From the NCBI GenBank assembly GCA_902591485.1, contig CACJAV010000012.1:7501-39758 (forward strand): a DNA stretch of 32,258 nt, in the 5' to 3' direction. Position 1 is the first letter of the stretch; every line of letters starts with the position of its first letter. Shown in pieces: positions 9,761-28,752 of the stretch. Position numbers and translations under genes: made by a program. The notes below the pieces were generated by a model. That model saw nothing but the letters and a program-made list of their open reading frames with translations. It made no database searches and was not told where the DNA came from. This DNA comes from an uncultured Alphaproteobacteria bacterium (GTDB lineage Bacteria > Pseudomonadota > Alphaproteobacteria > HIMB59 > GCA-002718135).

Positions 9761-10846
9761 ATGAAAGCCTTTATCAAAACAATATTTATGATAAAGAAAA
9801 TTATTTTTAGTAAAAAAGAATTTTTACTTCCTCTAAAAAAAAATATTTTGTTATTTGATGAAAATGGAAAAGATCAAATAAATTATTCTAAGATTATAAA
9901 ATCAGATTATGTAATTTTAAATACTAGATATGAAAAAATAAATTTAATGATCTTATTTTATTCCTTTTTTAAAAAAAATAAATATTCAAATTATTTATAT
10001 TTAAATACATATATAGAATATTGTGATCCTAAAATTATTATAACTTATATTGATACCTCAGCTAGATTAATTGAGATTAAAAAAAATTTTGAAAAAATAA
10101 TTATTATTTTTATTCAAAATGGATATAGGCAAAAAAGGTGGAATAAATCATTTGCTTTAATTGATAATAAAAAAAAAATAATTGATTATTATTTTGTGCA
10201 AAATGAAAACTGGCAAAACTATGTAAAAGATTATTTTTTCAAACAAGTTTATACTGTTGGCTCAATAACAAATAATAATTTTAAATATTGTTCCAATTTT
10301 AAGCAAATTAAATCCGTGCATTGGGTTTCTCAGTATCGTAAAAATAATAAAAATAATTTAGAACCTATTTTGCTAAAATATATAAAAAAAATCTGTTTAA
10401 ATTTTAATTTAAGTTTAGAAATTATATTAGCTCATAAATCAAAATATAAAGATGAGGTAAAATTTTATAAAGACATAATAGGAGAATGCGTTTTACAAGT
10501 AGATTCATATAATGCTGTAAATGAAGAATCTTTAATTGTTGGAATTGATTCAACTTTTTTGTATGAATCATTTGCAAGAGGTTTTAGAACTGCATTTTTA
10601 ACTGTAAGGAGTACGCAAAAAGACTGTGATGAATCTTATAATTTCGGTTGGCCAGGAAAATATTCAAAAGATGGTAATTTTTGGACATCAGAATTAGATG
10701 AACAAAAAATATTTAACATTTTTAAATATTTAATAAATATTAGTCATTCTAAATGGAAAAATGAAATTGCAAATTATGAGTCTATAATGCATTATGATCC
10801 GGGTAATAAATTTATTAAAAAATACTTATCAAAAATTACCAAATAG
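9761..10846 (+). CDS. Surface carbohydrate biosynthesis protein (TIGR04396-like putative transferase)
   Basis: A 361-residue soluble protein without signal peptide. It has alternating strand/helix pattern and a C-terminal segment GIDSTFLYESFARGFRTAF (261-279), followed by FGWPGK (295-300). This resembles TIGR04396-type surface carbohydrate biosynthesis proteins, which probably have a GT-B fold like CDP-glycerol glycerophosphotransferases or Kdo transferases. In such folds the GIDST..YE..ARG region lies in the donor-binding C-terminal half. The gene starts 4 bp after the ABC flippase, and the next gene starts 4 bp after its stop. Donor, acceptor and even transferase activity are inference. Confidence 0.65.
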   Translation: MKAFIKTIFMIKKIIFSKKEFLLPLKKNILLFDENGKDQINYSKIIKSDYVILNTRYEKINLMILFYSFFKKNKYSNYLYLNTYIEYCDPKIIITYIDTSARLIEIKKNFEKIIIIFIQNGYRQKRWNKSFALIDNKKKIIDYYFVQNENWQNYVKDYFFKQVYTVGSITNNNFKYCSNFKQIKSVHWVSQYRKNNKNNLEPILLKYIKKICLNFNLSLEIILAHKSKYKDEVKFYKDIIGECVLQVDSYNAVNEESLIVGIDSTFLYESFARGFRTAFLTVRSTQKDCDESYNFGWPGKYSKDGNFWTSELDEQKIFNIFKYLINISHSKWKNEIANYESIMHYDPGNKFIKKYLSKITK

Positions 10847-10850
10847 TATT

Positions 10851-11849
10851 ATGAAAAAGAATATTCTACTTATAGGTGGTGAAGGTTACATAGGTTCAGT
10901 AACAGCTTTGTATTTACTATCTAAAGGATACAAGGTTACAAGTTATGATAATTTAATTTTTAGCAATCATCATTCAGTTTTAAGCAAGAAATATAACCAA
11001 AATTTCAAATTTATATTTGGTGATTTGCAAAATCAGAAATTATTAAAAAAAGTAATAACAGAAAATAATATTAAGGTTATTGTTTTGTTAGCTGGTTTAG
11101 TAGGTGATCCTATTACAAAGAAATATCCAAAATATTCGAAGATAATTAATGATTATCTTGTTTCTAAAACAATTAATTTAGTCAAAAAAATCAAACTGGA
11201 TAATTTTATATTTGTTTCAACTTGTTCAAATTATGGATTAATAACAGATGATGTAATAGCAGATGAAAATTTTTATTTAAAACCCTTGTCTTCATATGCG
11301 AAATCTAAAGTTAGAGCTGAAAAGACTATCTTAAAATCTACGCCAAATAAATTTTATAGACCAACAATATTAAGGTTTGCAACAGCATTTGGAATTTCAC
11401 CTAGGATGAGATTTGATTTAACTGTAAATGAATTTACAAGAGAAATGTTTTTAAATAAAAAAATTGATGTTTATGATCCAGATACTTGGCGACCATATTG
11501 TCATGTTTTAGATTTTGCAAGAGCAATACAAAAAGTTTTTGAGTCTGATATTTCTAAAATTACTTTTGAAGTTTTTAATGTTGGAAATTCAATTAATAAT
11601 GCAACTAAAAGAATGATAATTGATTTAATTAAATCAAAAATAGATGACACAAAAGCTAATTACTTACGCAATTCAAATGATAAGAGAAATTACAGAGTAG
11701 ATTTTAGCAAAATACAAAAAAAACTTAGTTTTCAGACTAAATATTCAATAGAATATGGCATCGATGAAATATTGAATTTTTTAAAAGATGGTTTTTTTGA
11801 TAAAAAATTAGTAAATAAAAACGAATATGGAAATTATTTTTTAAAATAA
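10851..11849 (+). CDS. NAD-dependent epimerase/dehydratase (SDR)
   Basis: A 332-residue extended SDR. I place the start at the ATG at 10851, just before KNILLIGGEGYIGS with its GxxGxxG cofactor motif. An in-frame ATG at 10794 would add 19 residues and overlap the preceding gene by more than 50 bp. The active site reads STCSNYG, and YAKSK gives Tyr and Lys. TWRPYCHVLDFARAI is the conserved C-terminal substrate-domain motif. It is the first gene of the nonulosonate-type module (NeuB starts 7 bp after its stop), so it may act as the dehydratase or epimerase of that pathway. The Asp/Glu pair typical of 4,6-dehydratases (TDEVYG) is not present, so epimerase or reductase chemistry is more likely. 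Confidence 0.82.
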   Translation: MKKNILLIGGEGYIGSVTALYLLSKGYKVTSYDNLIFSNHHSVLSKKYNQNFKFIFGDLQNQKLLKKVITENNIKVIVLLAGLVGDPITKKYPKYSKIINDYLVSKTINLVKKIKLDNFIFVSTCSNYGLITDDVIADENFYLKPLSSYAKSKVRAEKTILKSTPNKFYRPTILRFATAFGISPRMRFDLTVNEFTREMFLNKKIDVYDPDTWRPYCHVLDFARAIQKVFESDISKITFEVFNVGNSINNATKRMIIDLIKSKIDDTKANYLRNSNDKRNYRVDFSKIQKKLSFQTKYSIEYGIDEILNFLKDGFFDKKLVNKNEYGNYFLK

Positions 11850-11856
11850 GTTTAAA

Positions 11857-12888
11857 ATGAGTATTTTTAAAAACAAAATTGATAGTACATATGTAATTGC
11901 TGAAGCTGGTGTAAATCATAACGGCAGTCTAAGAAGAGCTTTAGATCTAGTTGAAAAAGCTAAAAATTCAGGAGCTGATGCAATTAAATTTCAACTTTTT
12001 AATATTAATGAACAAGTTTCTAAGGATACTAAAACCGCCCCATATCAAAACAAAAATACTAATCAGCAATCTATGAAAAAAATGGCACTTTCTTATGACT
12101 TACCATTGTCTGCGCATAAAAAAATTAAAGATAAATGTGATAAATTAAATATTGATTATATGGCATCCTGCTTTGATTATGAAAGTGTTGATTTTATCAA
12201 AGATAAACTTCAAATTGATTATGTAAAAATTGCATCAGGTGAAATCACAAATATTAATTTACTTAAATATATATCAAAAAAAATAAATACAGTTATATTA
12301 AGTACGGGTATGAGTGATTTAAATGAAATAAACACCGCCCTTGGTATTTTAAAAAAAAACAAAAAAATTAAAATTGCAATTTTGCATTGTGTATCTTTGT
12401 ATCCAACAAAAGATAAATTATTAAATTTGAATTTCTTAAAAACATTACAAAAAAAATATAATCATATTTTGGGATTCAGTGATCACACTGTTGGATATGA
12501 TGCGGCAAAAATAGCAGTTTCACTTGGTTGTAAAGTTATAGAAAAACATCTTACATTAAATAAAAAAGATATTGGTCCTGATCATAAAATGGCACTCAAT
12601 CCAAATCAATTTAAAAGATTTGTGGCAAATATAAAGAAAACAGAAATTATGCTAGGATCTAAAAACAAAATTATTAATCAAAAAGAAATTGAAATGAGGA
12701 ATTTTGCAAGAAGAAGTATAGTTGCATCGAAGGATATAAAATCAGGCTCAACATTAAATAATAATAATATTACCCTTAAGAGGCCTGGAAATGGAATAAG
12801 TCCCTATCTATTTAAAAAAATAATTGGAAAAAAAACTATTAAATTTATTAAAAAGGACTCACTTCTATCATTAGATATGTTTAAATAG
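11857..12888 (+). CDS. neuB: N-acetylneuraminate/legionaminate synthase (NeuB family)
   Basis: A 343-residue nonulosonic acid synthase that condenses phosphoenolpyruvate with a six-carbon N-acylamino sugar. The N-terminal TIM barrel begins with YVIAEAGVNHNGS (12-24) and continues with ADAIKFQLF. GFSDHTVGYDAA lies near residue 205, and the C-terminal SAF (antifreeze-like) domain starts near residue 285 with FARRSIVASKDIKSG. All are hallmarks of NeuB, LegI and PseI. Length is normal. NeuC starts 2 bp after its stop. Whether the product is sialic, legionaminic or a related acid depends on the substrate made by the neighbours and cannot be read from this gene. Confidence 0.92.
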   Translation: MSIFKNKIDSTYVIAEAGVNHNGSLRRALDLVEKAKNSGADAIKFQLFNINEQVSKDTKTAPYQNKNTNQQSMKKMALSYDLPLSAHKKIKDKCDKLNIDYMASCFDYESVDFIKDKLQIDYVKIASGEITNINLLKYISKKINTVILSTGMSDLNEINTALGILKKNKKIKIAILHCVSLYPTKDKLLNLNFLKTLQKKYNHILGFSDHTVGYDAAKIAVSLGCKVIEKHLTLNKKDIGPDHKMALNPNQFKRFVANIKKTEIMLGSKNKIINQKEIEMRNFARRSIVASKDIKSGSTLNNNNITLKRPGNGISPYLFKKIIGKKTIKFIKKDSLLSLDMFK

Positions 12889-12890
12889 GA

Positions 12891-14003
12891 ATGAAGAAAA
12901 TTGCTTTTTTTTCAACATCAAGATCTGAATATGGAATAATAAAACCTTTAATTAGAAAATTACAAAATAACAAAAAATATAAAATATTATTTTTTGTTGG
13001 TGGCACTCATCTAAATCAACATTATGGTCTTACAAAATCAGAAATTAAGACTGATAAAATTAAAATAAATGATACATTTAATTATTTAGATAAATATTCT
13101 AAACAAGACATTAGCAATTCTTTTGCTAGAGCAACTAATAAAACAAATGATTTATTTATTAAATATACATTTGATTATGTTTGTATTTTAGGGGACAGAT
13201 TAGAACTTTTATCAATATTAATAAATAGTCTTATATATAATAAGAAAATAATTCATATTGGTGGCGGAGATACTACTGAAGGTGCATTTGATAACACAAT
13301 CAGGGATATGATTTCAAAAGCATCTTTTTTGCATTTTGTTTTAATAAAAAATCACAAGCAAAAGCTAATTCAAATGAACTGCAAAAAAAATTCTATTTAT
13401 GTTGTTGGTTCTTTAGCAATCGATACTATAAAAAAATTAAAATTTGCACCTAAAGCTACAATATTTAATAAAATGAACTTAAATATTAATTTAAAAACTG
13501 TAATATTTTCTTTCCACCCCTGTTATGCAGATTTAAAAAAAATTTCAAATATTGGTAATTTTTTTGAAGATATATTAAAGTTATTATTAGAATTAAATTT
13601 ACAAGTTATTTTAACTTATCCGGGTTTAGAAATTGAAAGTGATAACATTATAAAAAAAATTAATGAATTTAAAAAGAAAAATATAAAAAATTTATTTATA
13701 TATAAATCTTTAGGGATAGCTAATTTTAATAATGTCCTTAAAAATTCTGATTTAATAATCGGTAATTCATCTGCAGGCATTGTAGAAGCACCTTATCATA
13801 ATATACCAACTGTTAACATAGGTGACAGACAAAAAGGAAGGTTTTTTCATGAATCAATCATTGACTGTAGTTATAATCTTAACAAAATTAAAGACTCAAT
13901 AAGAAAATCATTAAAATATAAATTTAAGAAGCAAAAATATATTTATGGTAATGGAGACGCATCAGTTAAAATAATTAAAATATTAGATAATCAAATAAAA
14001 TAA
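12891..14003 (+). CDS. neuC: Hydrolysing UDP/GDP-sugar 2-epimerase (NeuC/LegG family)
   Basis: A 370-residue GT-B-fold epimerase that would release the mannosamine-type substrate of NeuB from a nucleotide sugar. Family features are KIAFFSTSRSEYGIIKPL at the N-terminus, ILGDRLELL (Asp102), and GNSSAGIVEAP near the C-terminus for nucleotide binding. The motif usually written HIHGGE reads HIGGGD here (122-127), and the usual IRH reads IRD (137-139). These are three substitutions in conserved pocket positions. With the CBS-nucleotidyltransferase at 16104, a GDP-linked substrate as in the Campylobacter legionaminate route is possible. Family is clear, substrate is not. Confidence 0.87.
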   Translation: MKKIAFFSTSRSEYGIIKPLIRKLQNNKKYKILFFVGGTHLNQHYGLTKSEIKTDKIKINDTFNYLDKYSKQDISNSFARATNKTNDLFIKYTFDYVCILGDRLELLSILINSLIYNKKIIHIGGGDTTEGAFDNTIRDMISKASFLHFVLIKNHKQKLIQMNCKKNSIYVVGSLAIDTIKKLKFAPKATIFNKMNLNINLKTVIFSFHPCYADLKKISNIGNFFEDILKLLLELNLQVILTYPGLEIESDNIIKKINEFKKKNIKNLFIYKSLGIANFNNVLKNSDLIIGNSSAGIVEAPYHNIPTVNIGDRQKGRFFHESIIDCSYNLNKIKDSIRKSLKYKFKKQKYIYGNGDASVKIIKILDNQIK

Positions 14004-14006
14004 ATA

Positions 14007-15059
14007 GTGAATCAAAAATTTTCAATTGCAGGACAATATGTTGATTTTGATAAATTCAAATCATCAAAAGTAAATTTTAGCCCTTATTTTTTAAATTCAG
14101 GTACGTTAACTATGAGTGGCAGGTCAGCTTTAATCTTATTATTAGAAAAATTTAATAAAAATAAATCAAAAAAAATATATTTACCTGGTTATGTTTGTGA
14201 GACTATCCCTAAAAACTTAATTAGTTTAGGTTTTAAAATACATTTTTATGATATTTTTCTTAATTCAAAAATTGATACATTATTTGAAGAGCAATCTATA
14301 GTTATTGTTGTTCACTATTTTGGTAATGAAAATAAAATTTCTAGTAAATTAAAAAATTCAAATTTAATAATATTAGAGGATTATACTCATTGTATGTTGA
14401 ATAATCTTAATGCTAAATTTAATAAAAGAAATGTTTTTATGTCACTTAGAAAATTCACAGGTCTCCCTTTTGGAGGTTGGACAAATATTAAAGAGAATAT
14501 AAATACTTTAAATAATGAAAAAATTTTAAAAAAAGAAAAAATAATTTATAAATATTTAAATCAAAAAAAAACATATATTAAAAATGAATCAGAATTTTCA
14601 TTGAAATTAGAAAATAAATTTTTAAAATTGAATAAAGATAATGAAATTTTATTAGATAAAAATATTTTAAATTATCCAATCCCTAAAATTTCCAATAATA
14701 TTTTGAGTTGCTATAATTGGAAAATAATTAGAAAAAAAAGAATAGAAAATTGGAAATATTTGAATAAAAATTTAAAAAATAAGTTCGATGTATTTCCAAA
14801 AAAAATTCAAGATAAAGTATGTCCATTATACTTTATAATTATAACAACAAAAAGGGATCAAATTCGAAATCATCTAATCAGCAAAAGAATATTTGTTGCC
14901 AATTCATGGAAAAAAATAAGCGATTTAAATTACCGTAATTTGACTAAATCAATATTTTTATTTAAAAATATTTTATATATTCCTTTAGATCAAAGATTAG
15001 AAAAATTTCAATTAAACATTATAATCCAGAATTTATTATTATTTTATGGAAAAAATTGA
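14007..15059 (+). CDS. Divergent DegT/AHBA-like PLP-dependent aminotransferase-fold protein
   Basis: A 350-residue protein starting with GTG. Weak but consistent fold-type I PLP features are present: SGRSALILLLE (37-47) as cofactor phosphate-binding helix, IYLPGYVCET (57-66), VVHYFGN (101-107), ILEDYTH (122-128) with the Asp that would contact the PLP ring nitrogen, and FMSLRKFTGLPFGGW (144-158). Lys149 in the last motif is the candidate Schiff-base lysine. It could act as the sugar aminotransferase of the nonulosonate module, as LegC does in legionaminate synthesis. It overlaps the FemAB/GNAT-like gene by 14 bp, which suggests amination followed by N-acylation, an inference. A catalytically altered homologue is the alternative. 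Confidence 0.68.
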   Translation: MNQKFSIAGQYVDFDKFKSSKVNFSPYFLNSGTLTMSGRSALILLLEKFNKNKSKKIYLPGYVCETIPKNLISLGFKIHFYDIFLNSKIDTLFEEQSIVIVVHYFGNENKISSKLKNSNLIILEDYTHCMLNNLNAKFNKRNVFMSLRKFTGLPFGGWTNIKENINTLNNEKILKKEKIIYKYLNQKKTYIKNESEFSLKLENKFLKLNKDNEILLDKNILNYPIPKISNNILSCYNWKIIRKKRIENWKYLNKNLKNKFDVFPKKIQDKVCPLYFIIITTKRDQIRNHLISKRIFVANSWKKISDLNYRNLTKSIFLFKNILYIPLDQRLEKFQLNIIIQNLLLFYGKN

Positions 15060-16101
15060 ACCATTATATCTAAAAAAAAAGAATTCAAATTATGTAAATA
15101 TTTTTTTAGAAAATAAAATTAAGAATTTTGCATGTGTATATAATCATGAAAAATATTTGAAATTAAACGAAAATAATATTGTTACGATAAAATTTCAATC
15201 AGGTAAAAATGTTTGGTTAAATACATATGAGATAAACACCATTGATAACAAGTTAACCAATAGTTCAATTAAATATTTTGATCTTCAAAGTCCTTATGGA
15301 TATTATGGCCCCTATACAAATAATATTGAAAAAACATTTATAGAAGATGCTAATTTTGCTTTCGATAATTGGTGTTTGGAAAATAATATTGTTGCAGAAT
15401 TTGTAAGATTTAATCCATTGATAAACAATTTTAATTTAAGAAAAAAATGTGAATTATTATTTGATAGAATGACTTTAAGTAATGATTTAGTTAAATTTAA
15501 AAAAAAAATAATTCCCTTTAATTCAAAAATTATGAATCAAATAAATAACTATAAAAATCACAATATTGTTATAAAAAAAAGTATAAACCAAGATGATTAC
15601 TTTAATTTTATTGAAATTTATAAACAAAAGATGCAATCAATCAGTGCAAATAATTTTTACTTATTTTCTGAAACGTATTTTATAAATTTATTTGAGTTTC
15701 TTAAAAAAAATGGTTTTCTGATTTTGGCATTTAATGATAAGAAAATAGTGGGCGGATCTATAATTTTGATTGATAATAAAAGTGCTTATTATCATTTGTC
15801 TGCAAATGCCGATAAGCAAATTTCAGGTCTAACAAACTCTTTAATATATAAAGCCATGCAATATTCCAGCTCTACAAATTTGAGTAATTTTTTTCTTGGT
15901 GGTGGAAATTCAAGTTCAGAACATGATAACCTATATAAATTTAAAGAAAAAATGGCAAATAAGAAACATAAATATTATATTGGAAAAAAAATACATAATA
16001 TTGATATGTATCAATATATTATAAAAAATTGGGAAAATAAATTTCCTAATTTGAAAAAAATGTATAATAAACATTTGCTCAAATATAATAATAAAGTTTA
16101 G
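15046..16101 (+). CDS. FemAB/GNAT-type acyltransferase
   Basis: A 351-residue protein with a FemAB-like N-terminal region (YGYYGPYTNN, then VAEFVRFNPL) and a C-terminal GNAT-type half with FLILAFNDKKIVGGSIIL (strand-turn-strand) and SAYYHLSANAD, typical of the GNAT_6/FemAB superfamily. Proteins of this kind in glycan loci usually acylate an amino sugar or attach amino acids. Its start lies inside the last codons of the divergent aminotransferase gene (14 bp overlap), and the PtmE-like gene begins 2 bp after its stop. I infer N-acylation of an amino group on the acidic sugar or its precursor. The acyl donor is unknown. Confidence 0.72.
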   Translation: MEKIEPLYLKKKNSNYVNIFLENKIKNFACVYNHEKYLKLNENNIVTIKFQSGKNVWLNTYEINTIDNKLTNSSIKYFDLQSPYGYYGPYTNNIEKTFIEDANFAFDNWCLENNIVAEFVRFNPLINNFNLRKKCELLFDRMTLSNDLVKFKKKIIPFNSKIMNQINNYKNHNIVIKKSINQDDYFNFIEIYKQKMQSISANNFYLFSETYFINLFEFLKKNGFLILAFNDKKIVGGSIILIDNKSAYYHLSANADKQISGLTNSLIYKAMQYSSSTNLSNFFLGGGNSSSEHDNLYKFKEKMANKKHKYYIGKKIHNIDMYQYIIKNWENKFPNLKKMYNKHLLKYNNKV

Positions 16102-16103
16102 AA

Positions 16104-17183
16104 ATGAAAAAAAATATCAAAAATCTGTGTATTAATAAAGATTATACAATTTCTAAATCAATGAAAAAAATCAATAAACTTGGAACCAGATGTTTATTCA
16201 TATTAAATTCAAACTCTCAATTTATAGGAACTATATCAGATGGGGATATAAGGAGGTCTATATTAAAAGGAGCAAATCTTAATCAAAGTATAGAAAAATT
16301 TTATAATTCAAAACCTATGGTTTTAAAAAAAAATGATAAAAATATTACAAAAAAAATTAATAATCTAAAAAACAAAAAATATTTAAATTTAATTCCTGTC
16401 TTGAATGATAAAAATAAAGTTGTAGATTTTGTTAATCTTGATAAAATTTATAAAGTTAAATCAACACTTAATCATACAAGTAAATTTCCATTAGTAATTA
16501 TTGCAGGTGGATTTGGAAAAAGGTTTCAACCTTTCTCTCATATCGTGCCTAAGCCTTTGTTACCAATTAATGGTAAATCTTTGTTAGAAATAATTATAAA
16601 CAAGTATCAAGAAAATGGTGGAAAGAAAATAATTTTATCTTTAGGTCATAAAGCAAATTTGATTATTTCATATTTAAAAAATATAAAATATTTTCATAAA
16701 TTAAATTTTATCAAAGAAACTAAACCCTTAGGAACAATTGGTAGTTTATCAAAAGCATCAAAATTTTTAACTAAAAATCAAAATATTACTGTAACAAATT
16801 GTGACACTATAATTTCTCATGACTACAACAAAATTTGTGAGTATCATTTAAATGAAAAAAATGATCTTACTGTTGTAGTTTGCAACAAAAGTTATAAATC
16901 TCCATATGGCTCTTGTATTTTAGATGAAAATCAAAATTTGATAAAAATGCATGAAAAACCAGAGTTCAAAATACTAGCTCATACTGGTTTTTATTTACTT
17001 AATACTTCGTTGATTAAATTAATTAAAAAAAATACATCAATTGATTTTAATGAATTTATCAAATTATGTATTGGAAATAAATCAAAAATAGGTGTTTATC
17101 CTATCTCATCAGATGAATGGTTAGATATCGGTGACTTAAGCAGATTTAATGACTTAAATTTTCTAAATAATGTTAAGATCTAA
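16104..17183 (+). CDS. CBS-domain nucleotidyltransferase, PtmE-like
   Basis: A 359-residue protein. Residues ~5-115 form two CBS repeats, with RCLFILNSNSQFIGTISDGD in the first, and ~127-350 a sugar-phosphate nucleotidyltransferase opening with VIIAGGFGKRFQPF and PKPLLPINGKSLLE. The CBS-plus-nucleotidyltransferase layout matches PtmE of the Campylobacter legionaminate pathway, which makes a GDP-linked hexosamine. That fits its place between NeuB/NeuC and the CMP-sugar synthetase. The CBS pair may bind a nucleotide regulator. Overlap with the next gene is 14 bp. The nucleotide used (GTP, UTP or other) is not determined by the sequence. Confidence 0.85.
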   Translation: MKKNIKNLCINKDYTISKSMKKINKLGTRCLFILNSNSQFIGTISDGDIRRSILKGANLNQSIEKFYNSKPMVLKKNDKNITKKINNLKNKKYLNLIPVLNDKNKVVDFVNLDKIYKVKSTLNHTSKFPLVIIAGGFGKRFQPFSHIVPKPLLPINGKSLLEIIINKYQENGGKKIILSLGHKANLIISYLKNIKYFHKLNFIKETKPLGTIGSLSKASKFLTKNQNITVTNCDTIISHDYNKICEYHLNEKNDLTVVVCNKSYKSPYGSCILDENQNLIKMHEKPEFKILAHTGFYLLNTSLIKLIKKNTSIDFNEFIKLCIGNKSKIGVYPISSDEWLDIGDLSRFNDLNFLNNVKI

Positions 17184-17877
17184 ATTTTTTGGTATAGTTC
17201 CTTTGAGAAAAGGTTCTATAAGACTTAAAAATAAAAATATAAGAAAAATATTTAGTAAAAGATTGATCGATTACACAATTGATGCTGTGATTAGATCTAA
17301 ATATGTAAATGAAGCAGTGATCACAACTGACTATGAATCAGTTATTAAAGCAGTAGAACAAAATGGAATACTTAAGACTATAAAACGACCAAAATACTTA
17401 TGCACTTCAAAAGCTTCTTTAATAAATGTTATTAATCATTCACTTAAGCATATAAAAAAAAATTTTAATATTTTACCAGAAAATTTAATTTTATTGCAAC
17501 CTACTTCACCATTTAGAACATCTAAAGATATTGATCAGGCAATAAAAATATTTAATGAGTCAAATAAAAAAAGTTTAATTTCAATATCTACACCATTAAA
17601 TTCTATAAATGATCAAATATTAATTCAGAATAATAAATATGAATTTTTAAACAAATATATACCAAAAGAATTTAAATATTCTAAAAATTATTTTATTGAT
17701 GGATCTATTTATATTATTAATACAAATTATTTTTTAAAGAAACAAATATTATGGGATAAGAATTCGATTTTATTTAAAATTAAACAGAGCCATTCAATTG
17801 ACATTGATACTAATTTTGATCTTGAACTAGCAAGATCTCTAGCATATTATTCAAAGATTAATTCAAATATATTTTAA
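17170..17877 (+). CDS. neuA: CMP-nonulosonate (acylneuraminate) cytidylyltransferase, NeuA/LegF-like
   Basis: A 235-residue enzyme that would activate the acidic sugar with CTP. The N-terminal motif is IVPLRKGSIRLKNKNI (9-24), related to the IPARxGSKxxxxKN CTP-binding loop of NeuA; the usual Lys after GS is Ile17 here. LLQPTSPFRTSKDID follows near residue 110, and a late IDIDTNFDLELA matches the family's C-terminal Asp motif. It is not KdsB-like: KdsB has an ARYxSTRxPGKP loop. It overlaps the PtmE-like gene by 14 bp and precedes the KdnB-like gene by 13 bp. Confidence 0.85.
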   Translation: MLRSKFFGIVPLRKGSIRLKNKNIRKIFSKRLIDYTIDAVIRSKYVNEAVITTDYESVIKAVEQNGILKTIKRPKYLCTSKASLINVINHSLKHIKKNFNILPENLILLQPTSPFRTSKDIDQAIKIFNESNKKSLISISTPLNSINDQILIQNNKYEFLNKYIPKEFKYSKNYFIDGSIYIINTNYFLKKQILWDKNSILFKIKQSHSIDIDTNFDLELARSLAYYSKINSNIF

Positions 17878-17890
17878 TAATCTATTAATC

Positions 17891-19075
17891 ATGAATCAAA
17901 ACTTAAGTAAATTTGAAATAAATAGCAGAGTAATATTTGGTAAAAATTCTTTAAAAGAATTAATTGAAGTTATAAAAAATGATTTTAAGTTTAAGCACAT
18001 TGGTGTTATCATAGATTACAATCTGTATAAAAATTCAAAAGAAACCAAAGTTTTTATCCATAAAATCAAAGAAAATTTTACTAAGCCAATTTTAGTATAT
18101 TATAAATTAAAACACGAGCCTACTTATGAATACTTAGATAAAATAAAATTTAAATTTAAAAAAAACAAAACTAGTTTAGTTGATTGTATTATTGGCATAG
18201 GGGGAGGAAGTTCTATAGATCTTGCAAAAGGTATCGCAACCTTAATTAAAAATCATCTTCCATCTAAGAAATATATGGGTTTCCCAACTAATATAAATAA
18301 ATCAATACCTGTAATAGCAATACCTTCTACTGCTGGAACAGGTACTGAACTTGCATATAATGCTGTATTTATTGATAAAAAAAATAATTTAAAACTTGGG
18401 ATAAATACAAAAAACAATTATCCTTTACTGGCCGTATTAGACCCAATACTTTTATCAACTTCTCCAAAAACAGTTTTAATAAACTCAGCTCTAGGAGCCT
18501 TAATCCGATCTGTTGAAACTTATGTATCACCAAAGGCTAACACAATAAGTAGAATGTATTCTAAAATTGCATTTGATTTAATTTATAATAACTTAATAAA
18601 GGTTATAAATAACAGGAAAGACTTTTCCTCTATCTTAAATTTACAATGGGGGGCATATTATTCAATGGTGGCTTTAAGTAATTCAACTTCAGGCCCAGCT
18701 GGAGCTCTAAGCTATTTTTTTTCTTTAAACTTTTCGATTCCACAAGGTTTAGGCTATTCTGTATCAGGAATTAATATTATTAATTTAAATCATAGGTTAG
18801 GTTTTTTTGGATATGGAGATTTTTATAATTTAATTAAAAAGAATAATTTTAAAAAACATTCTCAAAAATTAAAATCAAAATTATTTATAAGAAGTTTAAA
18901 TCGTCTTTTTAAGTTATATAATACTTTAGAATTCAAAAATTTTAATTTTAATACAAAAGATGAAATTAAAATTAATGAATTTTATAAAGTCGTCGAAGCA
19001 GCTTTTCAAAATAATCCAATGCAGTATAAAGAGAAGGATTTGACTATTTTAACAAAAAGTTTATTTAAAAAATAG
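17891..19075 (+). CDS. kdnB: KdnB-like iron-type alcohol dehydrogenase homologue with lost metal ligands
   Basis: A 394-residue group III (iron-containing) alcohol dehydrogenase homologue. The dinucleotide-type motif GIGGGSSIDLAKG (102-114) and IPSTAGTGTE (144-153) are intact. The four canonical metal ligands are not: Gly202 and Arg206 stand where the D..TH Asp and His occur, and Tyr275 and Gln285 replace the two later His (the second normally in a PHG motif). KdnB of Shewanella, an oxidase acting on C8 of Kdo, belongs to this superfamily and works with KdnA; here the next gene is KdnA-like, 2 bp downstream. Assignment to KdnB rests on that pairing. With the altered site it may be a non-metal enzyme, a binding subunit or inactive. 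Confidence 0.68.
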   Translation: MNQNLSKFEINSRVIFGKNSLKELIEVIKNDFKFKHIGVIIDYNLYKNSKETKVFIHKIKENFTKPILVYYKLKHEPTYEYLDKIKFKFKKNKTSLVDCIIGIGGGSSIDLAKGIATLIKNHLPSKKYMGFPTNINKSIPVIAIPSTAGTGTELAYNAVFIDKKNNLKLGINTKNNYPLLAVLDPILLSTSPKTVLINSALGALIRSVETYVSPKANTISRMYSKIAFDLIYNNLIKVINNRKDFSSILNLQWGAYYSMVALSNSTSGPAGALSYFFSLNFSIPQGLGYSVSGINIINLNHRLGFFGYGDFYNLIKKNNFKKHSQKLKSKLFIRSLNRLFKLYNTLEFKNFNFNTKDEIKINEFYKVVEAAFQNNPMQYKEKDLTILTKSLFKK

Positions 19076-19077
19076 TT

Positions 19078-20220
19078 ATGCCAGGCTATGAACTTATTAA
19101 TAATTCTGAAAAAAAAGCAGTTAATGAAATTTTTGATAATAAAGAATTATTTTACAACGGGAAAAGAGTAAAAAAATTTGAAAAAGAATTTGCGCGATAC
19201 ATTGGCTCAAAATACGCTGTAGCAGTATCGTCTGGGACAGCGGCTATCAAAATTGCTTTAAAATGTCTTGGCATCAAAGCTGGTGATGAAGTAATAACTC
19301 AATCATTTACATTCATAGCAACTTTAGAGGCTATAGTTGATGTAGGAGCAACTCCTATTGTAATTAATGTTGACGACTCTTTGAATATGGATGTTAAAGA
19401 ATTAGAAAAGCATATTACAAAAAAAACAAAAGCAATTATTCCTGTTCATATGTTAGGTGTTGCGGCAGAAATGTCTAAGATAAATAAAATTGCTAAGAAA
19501 TTTAAAATACCAGTTGTGGATGACAATTGTGAAGCTTTAGGAGCAAAATGGGGGAAAGATAAACTTGGCATACAGTCAGATATTTGCACGTGGAGTTTTG
19601 ATAATGGCAAAACCATAACTACAGGAGAAGGAGGAATGATAACAACAAATAATAAAGACTTAAGTATGTTGTTTAGAGAATATAGAGATCATGGACATCA
19701 AAACAATCCAAAATTTCCTAGAGGTAGAGATACTCATAGAATTTATGGTTTTAATTTTAGAACTACAGAAATAAATGCCGCTATAGGGATAGAGCAATTA
19801 AAAAAATTAAATTTTATAGTAAGAGAAAATAAAAAAAGATATAATATATATAAAAAAGAGCTTTTAAAAATAAAACATCTTAAATTGCGACGAATACCAA
19901 AAGCAAATATTCCTTTATGTGATTGCATTATATTTTCTATTGATGATTTAAACAAAATAAAAAAAATTCTTATAGAATTGAGTAAAAAAAATATCATTAC
20001 CAAAAACGTACCCGATGCAATTGAATGGCACTTTGCTAAATATTGGGATCATATTTTTAAGGAGCAAAAAATATCTAAGCAGCAATTGGAAACTAAATTT
20101 CTGAAATCATCTTATTATCTTGAGAGAAGCATAGCTATACCAATTTTTGTAAAAGAGGAATTAAAACAAACAACAAAAAAAGCTAGGGAATTAAGTCAAA
20201 TAATCAAATCTTTTGTATAA
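19078..20220 (+). CDS. kdnA: KdnA-like DegT/DnrJ/EryC1 aminotransferase
   Basis: A 380-residue PLP-dependent sugar aminotransferase. SSGTAAIKIALK (51-62) binds the cofactor phosphate, and VVDDNCEALGAKW (146-158) carries the PLP-ring Asp. FDNGKTITTGEGGMI (174-188) holds Lys178, the probable Schiff-base lysine. The MPGYEL beginning, the FDxxKTITTGEGGM motif and a C-terminal EWHFAKYWDH match what I recall of KdnA, which aminates the C8 aldehyde of Kdo in Shewanella. The gene follows the KdnB-like gene by 2 bp, as an oxidase-transaminase pair would. Here the substrate may be a nonulosonate or Kdo. A 71 bp gap follows. Confidence 0.8.
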   Translation: MPGYELINNSEKKAVNEIFDNKELFYNGKRVKKFEKEFARYIGSKYAVAVSSGTAAIKIALKCLGIKAGDEVITQSFTFIATLEAIVDVGATPIVINVDDSLNMDVKELEKHITKKTKAIIPVHMLGVAAEMSKINKIAKKFKIPVVDDNCEALGAKWGKDKLGIQSDICTWSFDNGKTITTGEGGMITTNNKDLSMLFREYRDHGHQNNPKFPRGRDTHRIYGFNFRTTEINAAIGIEQLKKLNFIVRENKKRYNIYKKELLKIKHLKLRRIPKANIPLCDCIIFSIDDLNKIKKILIELSKKNIITKNVPDAIEWHFAKYWDHIFKEQKISKQQLETKFLKSSYYLERSIAIPIFVKEELKQTTKKARELSQIIKSFV

Positions 20221-27216: not shown

Positions 27217-28098
27217 ATGGGTAAAAATAAAAATGTTTTACTAATTGGTGGGGAAGGTTTTTTAGGTGCCCACATTTCTAATGAATTAATAAATCAAGGA
27301 TATATTGTAACAGTACTTGATATTAAAAAAAAAAATATTTTAGAAAATAAAAAAATCAAATATGTTCAAGGAGATGTCGCTAACTTAAAAGTTTTAAATA
27401 AATTAATTAAAAATTCATCTATTGTTTATCATTTTGCTGGAATAGCCAGTATTGAATATTCCTTTCAAAACCCCAGCAAAACAATTAATCAAAATATTAT
27501 TAACACAATTAACATTGTTGAATTATGCATTAAGCATAAAGTTAATAAATTTATATTTGCTTCATCTTTGTATGTTTATAACAATTTTGGATCATTTTAT
27601 AGGGCTTCAAAACAAGCTTGTGAGTTATTGATACAAACATATGCAGACCAATTTAAACTAAACTATATCTTTCTAAGATATGGATCACTTTATGGGACTA
27701 ATGCACAAGAGTGGAATGGAATAATGAATTATGTATCAACAATATATAAAAATAAAAAAATTACATATAATGGTTCTGGCAATGAAAAAAGAGAGTACAT
27801 CCATGTCAAGGATGCTGCGAGAATAAGTGTTGATATATTGAAAATTAAAAAAAATAATAATGCTTACATAATTTCAGGTAATCAAAACTTAACATCACGA
27901 GATCTAATAAAAATGATTTTTGAAATAATGGGCATTAAAGAAAATATTAAATTTACTAATAAGCCTAATAATTATCATTATGACTCAACCCCATATCGAT
28001 ATGTGCCTATTGCTGCGACAAAAATTACTGCAAATAATTTTAAAGATATAGGTCAAGGTATAATGGAAATAGTAACTGCATTAGATAATTCAGAATAA
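27217..28098 (+). CDS. NAD-dependent epimerase/dehydratase (SDR)
   Basis: A 293-residue extended SDR. VLLIGGEGFLGAH (7-19) is the GxxGxxG cofactor motif, ASSLYVY marks the active-site Ser strand and YRASK supplies Tyr and Lys. KREYIHVKDAAR is the usual C-terminal domain motif. Slightly shorter than most epimerases (about 310-340), with a trimmed acidic-sugar loop after YVY. It opens the right-hand operon, and the HAD gene starts at the next base after its stop. The pairing with a HAD phosphatase suggests a nucleotide-sugar or phosphosugar pathway, but the substrate cannot be told. Confidence 0.82.
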   Translation: MGKNKNVLLIGGEGFLGAHISNELINQGYIVTVLDIKKKNILENKKIKYVQGDVANLKVLNKLIKNSSIVYHFAGIASIEYSFQNPSKTINQNIINTINIVELCIKHKVNKFIFASSLYVYNNFGSFYRASKQACELLIQTYADQFKLNYIFLRYGSLYGTNAQEWNGIMNYVSTIYKNKKITYNGSGNEKREYIHVKDAARISVDILKIKKNNNAYIISGNQNLTSRDLIKMIFEIMGIKENIKFTNKPNNYHYDSTPYRYVPIAATKITANNFKDIGQGIMEIVTALDNSE

Positions 28099-28752
28099 AT
28101 GAAATTTTCCTATTTAACAAAAAATTTTGAAATATTTATTTTTGATTTTGATGGTGTTATTCTTGACTCAGTTGATATTAAAAATAAATTTTTTCGTAAA
28201 TTCTTTTTAGAATATGGTGTTGAAATTGGAAATTTGGCCTACAATCATCATATAAAAAACTTAGGTATTTCTAGGTATGATAAAATTGATTTTGTATATA
28301 ATAATTTTATAAAAAAAAAATTAGATATAAATACTAAAAAAAAAATATTAGAAAATTTTTCAAATAAAATTATTGAGTCTATCCAAATGGCTGATTTTAT
28401 AAGTGGTGTTAAAAATCTTTTAATTAATTTAAAAAAAAATAATAAAAAATGCTTTATTATTTCAGCCACCCCCTTTGAGGAATTAGAAAAAATAGTTAAT
28501 TTTAAAAATCTTAATGGTTTTTTTTTGAAACTTTATGGATCTCCAAAAAAAAAAATTCAAAACTACAACGACTTATCAAATGAATTCGGTATTAGTTCAA
28601 AAAAATCAGTTTATTTTGGAGACACAATAAATGATTTAAAATTTGCAAAACAAAAAAATATTAATTTTATTAGTATTGGAAAAAATTTATTAGAATATTC
28701 AGATGATTATATGCTTACATCCCTAATTGATTTTAGGGAGATAGTTTATTAG
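28099..28752 (+). CDS. HAD-superfamily phosphatase
   Basis: A 217-residue HAD hydrolase. Motif I is FIFDFDGVILDS (nucleophile and acid/base Asp), motif II FIISATP (Ser/Thr), a Lys in the GSPKKK region serves as motif III, and motif IV is VYFGDTINDL with the Mg-binding acidic residues. The helical cap follows motif I as in phosphoglycolate phosphatase-like enzymes. It probably removes a phosphate from a sugar or small metabolite in the operon's pathway. It contains homopolymer runs of A10 (28311-28320) and A11 (28545-28555). The next gene begins 6 bp after its stop. Confidence 0.85.
   Translation: MKFSYLTKNFEIFIFDFDGVILDSVDIKNKFFRKFFLEYGVEIGNLAYNHHIKNLGISRYDKIDFVYNNFIKKKLDINTKKKILENFSNKIIESIQMADFISGVKNLLINLKKNNKKCFIISATPFEELEKIVNFKNLNGFFLKLYGSPKKKIQNYNDLSNEFGISSKKSVYFGDTINDLKFAKQKNINFISIGKNLLEYSDDYMLTSLIDFREIVY

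Follow-up and report, generated by a model that had tools for sequence, protein, structure and literature searches.

In the 32,258-nucleotide stretch of DNA from an uncultured marine alphaproteobacterium that we analysed (the window), a DegT aminotransferase of the KdnA clade lies inside a nonulosonate locus, an assignment that is well supported, and directly follows the gene for an Fe-ADH-fold protein that has lost its metal site. We put the probability at about 0.4 that the local nonulosonate undergoes KdnA-type amination and is activated with CMP afterwards, with the carbonyl coming from the metal-free partner or from another enzyme. The end product is probably an aminated sugar of an unusual kind. 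The reference system, described in part by PDB titles and PMC5125639, is that of Shewanella, where C8 of Kdo is first oxidised by KdnB and then transaminated by KdnA. The product, Kdo8N, has been described from Shewanella (PMC3210612; PMC6357163).

The gene pair lies in a nonulosonate operon

The three central genes are on the forward strand and form intact open reading frames without stops. They encode a CMP-ulosonate synthetase of the NeuA/PseF type, not KdsB (17170–17877, 235 aa, PF02348 (CTP_transf_3)), the Fe-ADH-fold protein with its NAD motif (17891–19075, 394 aa, PF00465, 118 bits) and the DegT aminotransferase (19078–20220, 380 aa, PF01041, 295 bits). Gaps of 13 and 2 bases, respectively, separate them. 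The synthetase scores 98 bits with the PseF model against 29 bits with kdsB, and its best solved relatives are the CMP-Neu5Ac synthetases 6ifd and 1eyr.

Upstream in the same run and on the same strand, we identified a NeuB-type nonulosonate synthase (11857–12888; PF03102, 262 bits; SAF domain), which at 369 bits lies slightly under the TIGR03569 equivalog cut-off of 399.65, and a NeuC/LegG-type hydrolysing NDP-HexNAc 2-epimerase (12891–14003; TIGR03568, 332 bits, above cut-off), whose best solved relative is 5xvs. A PtmE-like sugar-1-phosphate nucleotidyltransferase with CBS (PF00571) and NTP_transferase (PF00483) domains is encoded at 16104–17183. NeuB, a hydrolysing 2-epimerase and a CMP synthetase are the combination by which a nonulosonate locus is recognised, and all three are present in this one operon; the solved relatives of NeuB do not assign it to the Neu, Leg or Pse type. 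Open reading frames and family searches agree with the arrangement given in an earlier note on this DNA, in which a DegT gene and an Fe-ADH-family homologue adjoin behind a NeuA-like gene, with NeuB, NeuC and PtmE-like genes upstream. That note had called the pair fused to the pathway, which holds as operon linkage but not as gene fusion.

The remaining members of the run are less clear. The short-chain dehydrogenase/reductase (SDR) gene upstream of NeuB (10794–11849, forward strand) belongs to the epimerase/dehydratase family and resembles the solved protein 6vo6 (165 bits). It is not LegB, scoring 58.9 on the LegB model against a cut-off of 475, and its catalytic motif is STCSNYG, not of the dehydratase TDE type. 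No LegB above cut-off was found in the window genome (G000, a 1.4 Mb assembly, 83% complete) or in its relatives G008 and G019, these genomes being 77–83% complete. The gene at 15046–16101 (forward strand) is a candidate FemAB/GNAT-like acyltransferase, with a weak PF04339 match under the cut-off of that family. The protein encoded at 14007–15059 (forward strand, 350 aa) has no Pfam, NCBIfam or PDB match, and a profile comparison aligned it weakly with the KdnA-clade alignment over the PLP-lysine region (E 2.6e-4). By this similarity, it is probably a highly diverged PLP enzyme of the DegT type. Its homologues were seen only in the window genome, in G008 and, weakly, in G001.

The operon shares PtmE-like, NeuC/LegG-like, NeuB/LegI-like and CMP-synthetase genes with the legionaminic acid pathway (PtmE-LegB-LegC-LegH-LegG-LegI-LegF). 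However, it contains neither LegB nor LegC above cut-off and adds the KdnA-type transaminase and the Fe-ADH-fold protein.

The Fe-ADH-fold partner has lost its metal site

The AlphaFold model of the dehydrogenase shows a complete Fe-ADH fold (pLDDT 88) that matches solved Fe-ADHs at Z scores of 39–49; a previous model with a pLDDT of 44.7 was set aside, and FucO-like viral sequences were used for the second. The Z scores of 46–49 to FucO-type enzymes, against 39.7 to KdnB (5k8c), belong to a model built on an alignment rich in FucO-type sequences, so the ranking is not neutral. Among solved proteins, 5k8c is the 14th best match by sequence and the 36th best by structure. The NAD motif is fully kept (G104–S107, D110). 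The metal site, Asp/His/His/His in this family, reads G202, R206, G271 and Q285 in the window protein and in that of G008, with Y275 kept, and the more distant G019 protein has D, H, S and H and so has lost one ligand. All four ligands are intact in 19 of 19 KdnBs, in the homologue from G835 (a 2.0 Mb genome from another group in the phylum) and in every other Fe-ADH compared.

In the tree, the window protein forms a trio with those of G008 and G019, and KdnB groups with the G835 protein. Both clades are solid, and a topology that joins them is neither favoured nor rejected (AU p 0.47). We therefore did not file the window protein as KdnB. The earlier description of it as a KdnB-like homologue of group III alcohol dehydrogenases is borne out for the fold and the NAD motif, but not clearly for placement with KdnB and not for the metal site, whose loss the note does not mention. 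Judged from its sequence, ordinary Fe/Zn-type alcohol oxidation by this protein is unlikely, since all four metal ligands are lost.

Maleylacetate reductases, a subfamily of the Fe-ADHs, have the same fold and catalyse without metal (PMC5125639), and solved members match the window model at Z ~39.5. They are described as swapping the metal Asp for Asn or Arg, whereas the window protein swaps all four ligands, and their substrate chemistry is unrelated. By this precedent, the Fe-ADH-fold partner would most likely still bind NAD and substrate and supply the carbonyl by a metal-free route, which we propose because its metal site is gone.

The complete loss of the metal site also fits a second reading, in which the protein is non-catalytic and serves as a structural or regulatory partner while an SDR or an ADH encoded elsewhere makes the carbonyl. 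This would be compatible with any substrate. Candidates for making the carbonyl are the operon SDR and two Fe-ADHs with intact sites that the genome encodes outside this locus. Against it stand the complete fold with its kept NAD motif, the three ligands retained by the G019 relative and the selection acting on the gene: between the window and G008, the dehydrogenase has a dN/dS of ~0.14 and the aminotransferase one of ~0.07, and both are therefore under purifying selection. We regard a non-catalytic partner as a serious if tentative alternative.

The aminotransferase belongs to the KdnA clade

The placement of the aminotransferase is firmer than that of its partner. Its top solved relative is KdnA (5k8b) at 196 bits, the next scoring 178. 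For a maximum-likelihood tree, we combined the KdnA sequences of three Shewanella-type genomes with ArnB and WecE of E. coli, an annotated PseC, a perosamine synthase and others, but no LegC. The window protein falls inside the KdnA clade with 100/100 support against ArnB, PseC, WecE and perosamine synthases. There it belongs to a sub-branch (99/98) with the proteins of G008, G019 and G835 and a phage gene. The PLP lysine K178, D149 and the TTGEGG motif are invariant, and the hallmarks of KdnA are kept: the MPG[FYW]E start, VHM.G, DHGH, WH...W.H and GEGG. The earlier note had described the DegT protein as KdnA-like, and tree and solved match both place it with KdnA, not with C4-aminating enzymes. 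In the phylogeny that had been proposed for both proteins, the aminotransferase thus comes out with KdnA, whereas the dehydrogenase does not clearly come out with KdnB.

The window and Shewanella proteins differ in the C-terminal substrate segment, just before the conserved WH...W.H: TKNVPDAIEWH in the window against CFYWYVNNWH in Shewanella. A KNxPDAxxWH-type segment is common to the window, G019 and phage homologues, and G835 has the near variant KILPEAYTWH. The Shewanella-type FYWYxNNWH, which the window protein does not have, is taken here as a sub-branch feature, not as an established definition of the family.

The neighbourhood favours a nonulosonate as the likely substrate

The window pair resembles that of Shewanella oneidensis (5k8b, 5k8c; Kdo8N) in its adjacent Fe-ADH-fold and DegT genes, in the clade and motifs of the DegT protein and in the linked CMP-ulosonate synthetase. 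It differs in its reversed gene order and in having a NeuA-type enzyme with NeuB and NeuC where Shewanella has KdsB. We found the order kdnA-kdnB-kdsB in two of the three Shewanella-type genomes read; in the third (L215), we saw no kdsB next to the two genes. The G835 pair (L060/L062) is closer in arrangement, with the dehydrogenase first, a transaminase of the same sub-branch (~40% identical) and NeuB in the run kdnB-kdnA-glycosyltransferase-NeuB-cytidylyltransferase, although its dehydrogenase keeps the metal site and falls in the KdnB clade. The window genome and G835 are unrelated, and both link a KdnA-type transaminase to nonulosonate genes. The G019 pair is ~3.4 kb away from a second gene of the KdsB type and close to an HpaI-type aldolase, with NeuB ~12 kb off in the same locus. 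This second KdsB-type protein is 33% identical to the housekeeping KdsB of the genus and scores above the cut-off of a Kdo cytidylyltransferase subfamily.

The pairs whose wider surroundings were read lie near an ulosonate synthase or CMP-ulosonate synthetase gene (kdsB twice in Shewanella, the KdsB paralogue in G019, NeuB in G835, NeuA/NeuB in the window), and the common thread is an ulosonate awaiting CMP activation. In terms of the comparison of NeuB/NeuA with KdsB that the earlier note proposed, NeuB/NeuA accompany the pair in the window and NeuB does so in G835, and KdsB-type genes lie near the pair in G019 and in two Shewanella-type genomes.

The G019 arrangement is one of the observations that would fit action on Kdo itself, giving Kdo8N as in Shewanella, with the nonulosonate neighbours incidental and activation by an unlinked housekeeping KdsB or by the NeuA-type enzyme. 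The DegT protein is of the KdnA clade, KdsA is present in nine of nine genomes of the genus and a housekeeping KdsB in the window genome. However, that KdsB is on another contig, and the CMP enzyme standing 13 bases upstream of the pair is of the NeuA/PseF type. The C-terminal substrate segment is likewise unlike that of Shewanella KdnA and like the NeuB-linked G835 type, and presence in 3 of 110 family genomes sets the pair apart from core Kdo genes. We consider Kdo an unlikely substrate: neighbourhood and altered substrate segment favour a nonulosonate. Action on some other ulosonate is conceivable as well. The proposal that the pair acts on a nonulosonate is supported to this extent, chiefly by its own surroundings and by the NeuB-linked G835 pair, while the presence of Kdo genes in the genus speaks on the other side.

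Beside the G019 pair (L034:14525–18670), we also observed genes for an SDR, a PhyH dioxygenase and a protein without family match together with the HpaI-type aldolase and the second KdsB-type cytidylyltransferase. This set suggests another 3-deoxy-ulosonate, formed by aldol addition of pyruvate.

Predicted substrate and position of the amine

The known chemistry of KdnA and KdnB acts on a primary alcohol. For a nonulosonate substrate, analogy with Kdo8N leads naturally to an amine at C9, provided that the substrate keeps its C9 alcohol. That it does so is plausible, because no LegB scores above cut-off and the operon SDR is more similar to 6vo6 than to a dehydratase. In the amination that we favour, the DegT protein would act on a free 3-deoxy-2-ulosonic acid and aminate a carbon close to its end that has been oxidised. 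This acid is most likely the nonulosonate that the adjacent NeuB produces, and the neighbouring NeuA-type enzyme would activate the aminated sugar with CMP afterwards. With the C9 alcohol retained, the product would be a 9-amino-9-deoxy sugar. From homology and gene context we infer the substrate, the position of the amine, the direction and mechanism of the dehydrogenase and the order of these steps relative to CMP activation. The most specific version, in which a metal-free Fe-ADH-fold enzyme oxidises the terminal alcohol of the nonulosonate, the KdnA-type transaminase installs a C9 amine and the CMP-activated sugar enters a surface glycan, is possible but doubtful.

Alternatively, a 9-deoxy nonulosonate might be aminated at C8. 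One sugar with an exocyclic amine, 8-amino-3,5,7,8,9-pentadeoxynonulosonate, is known chemically from the O-antigen of Flexibacter (Tenacibaculum) maritimus (PMC3210612), and we found no genes described for its biosynthesis; the pathway to legionaminate, a 9-deoxy sugar, includes PtmE and LegG (PMC3438082), and redox chemistry at C8 of a nonulosonate is known from Acinetobacter, where an enzyme pair epimerises pseudaminic acid at this position (PMC12053666). Nonetheless, these 77–83% complete genomes yielded no 4,6-dehydratase dedicated to a 6-deoxy precursor, and a primary alcohol is the group on which KdnA and KdnB are known to work, so we hold amination at C8 to be distinctly unlikely. Least probable is that the DegT protein serves a legionaminate-like pathway as its C4 transaminase, in place of LegC or PseC, with an unrelated function for the Fe-ADH-fold protein: PseC and LegC are its best NCBIfam models and the operon has no other clear LegC, but the 233 bits reached with each are far under the cut-offs of 423.5 and 420, the tree sets the protein with KdnA outside ArnB, PseC and WecE (100/100), and no LegB dehydratase that could provide a 4-keto-6-deoxy sugar was found in the window genome, G008 or G019.

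As to the earlier suggestion of a new, unusual aminated sugar, the F. maritimus compound shows that amination of a nonulosonate is in itself no novelty. If amination of the local nonulosonate is correct, it would link the Kdo8N chemistry of Shewanella to sialic-acid-like sugars, predict that marine bacteria display a zwitterionic nonulosonate with an amine, and provide gene candidates for sugars such as that of F. maritimus. A metal-dependent ADH fold would also have shed its metal site beside a KdnA-type partner, with relatives that have four, three and no ligands. If a C9 amine is made by the metal-free route, the sugar would be new as a natural product and the Fe-ADH fold would have gained a new mode of catalysis.

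Distribution of the pair

In the window genome, G008 and G019, the three family genomes that carry the pair, the two genes are adjacent and in the same order. Identity to the window proteins is 93% (dehydrogenase) and 96% (DegT) in G008, and 42% and 51% in G019; with adjacency kept in both, the association is therefore not chance. The pair is rare in the genome samples of the whole class, phylum and order. NeuB is present in all three pair-bearing genomes, which is weakly informative because it was found in 56 of the 110 family genomes, and co-occurrence of pair and NeuB within the family is not significant. That NeuB shares the operon with the pair carries more weight than its mere presence. 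Literature searches returned no gene pair of this kind, the original papers on Kdo8N biosynthesis being outside their reach.

Scans of viral contigs gave no relatives of the window dehydrogenase or of KdnB. One phage contig carries a KdnA-clade aminotransferase beside terminase-like genes (L052:1–1140); the contig ends there, with no partner visible. A DegT match on an Embleya plasmid sides with KdnA in the tree (88/72), with no obvious Fe-ADH-like partner among the open reading frames read. In the contig of the window (C12), a run of ~5 kb upstream of the window reads N (L036). A pair of epimerase and HAD-phosphatase-like genes at 27217–28752 of the window recurs in G835 beside a NeuA-like gene (L063:2715–4273). 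The NeuB homologues of three further genomes, G056, G060 and G098 (L176, L175), contain one in-frame TGA each.
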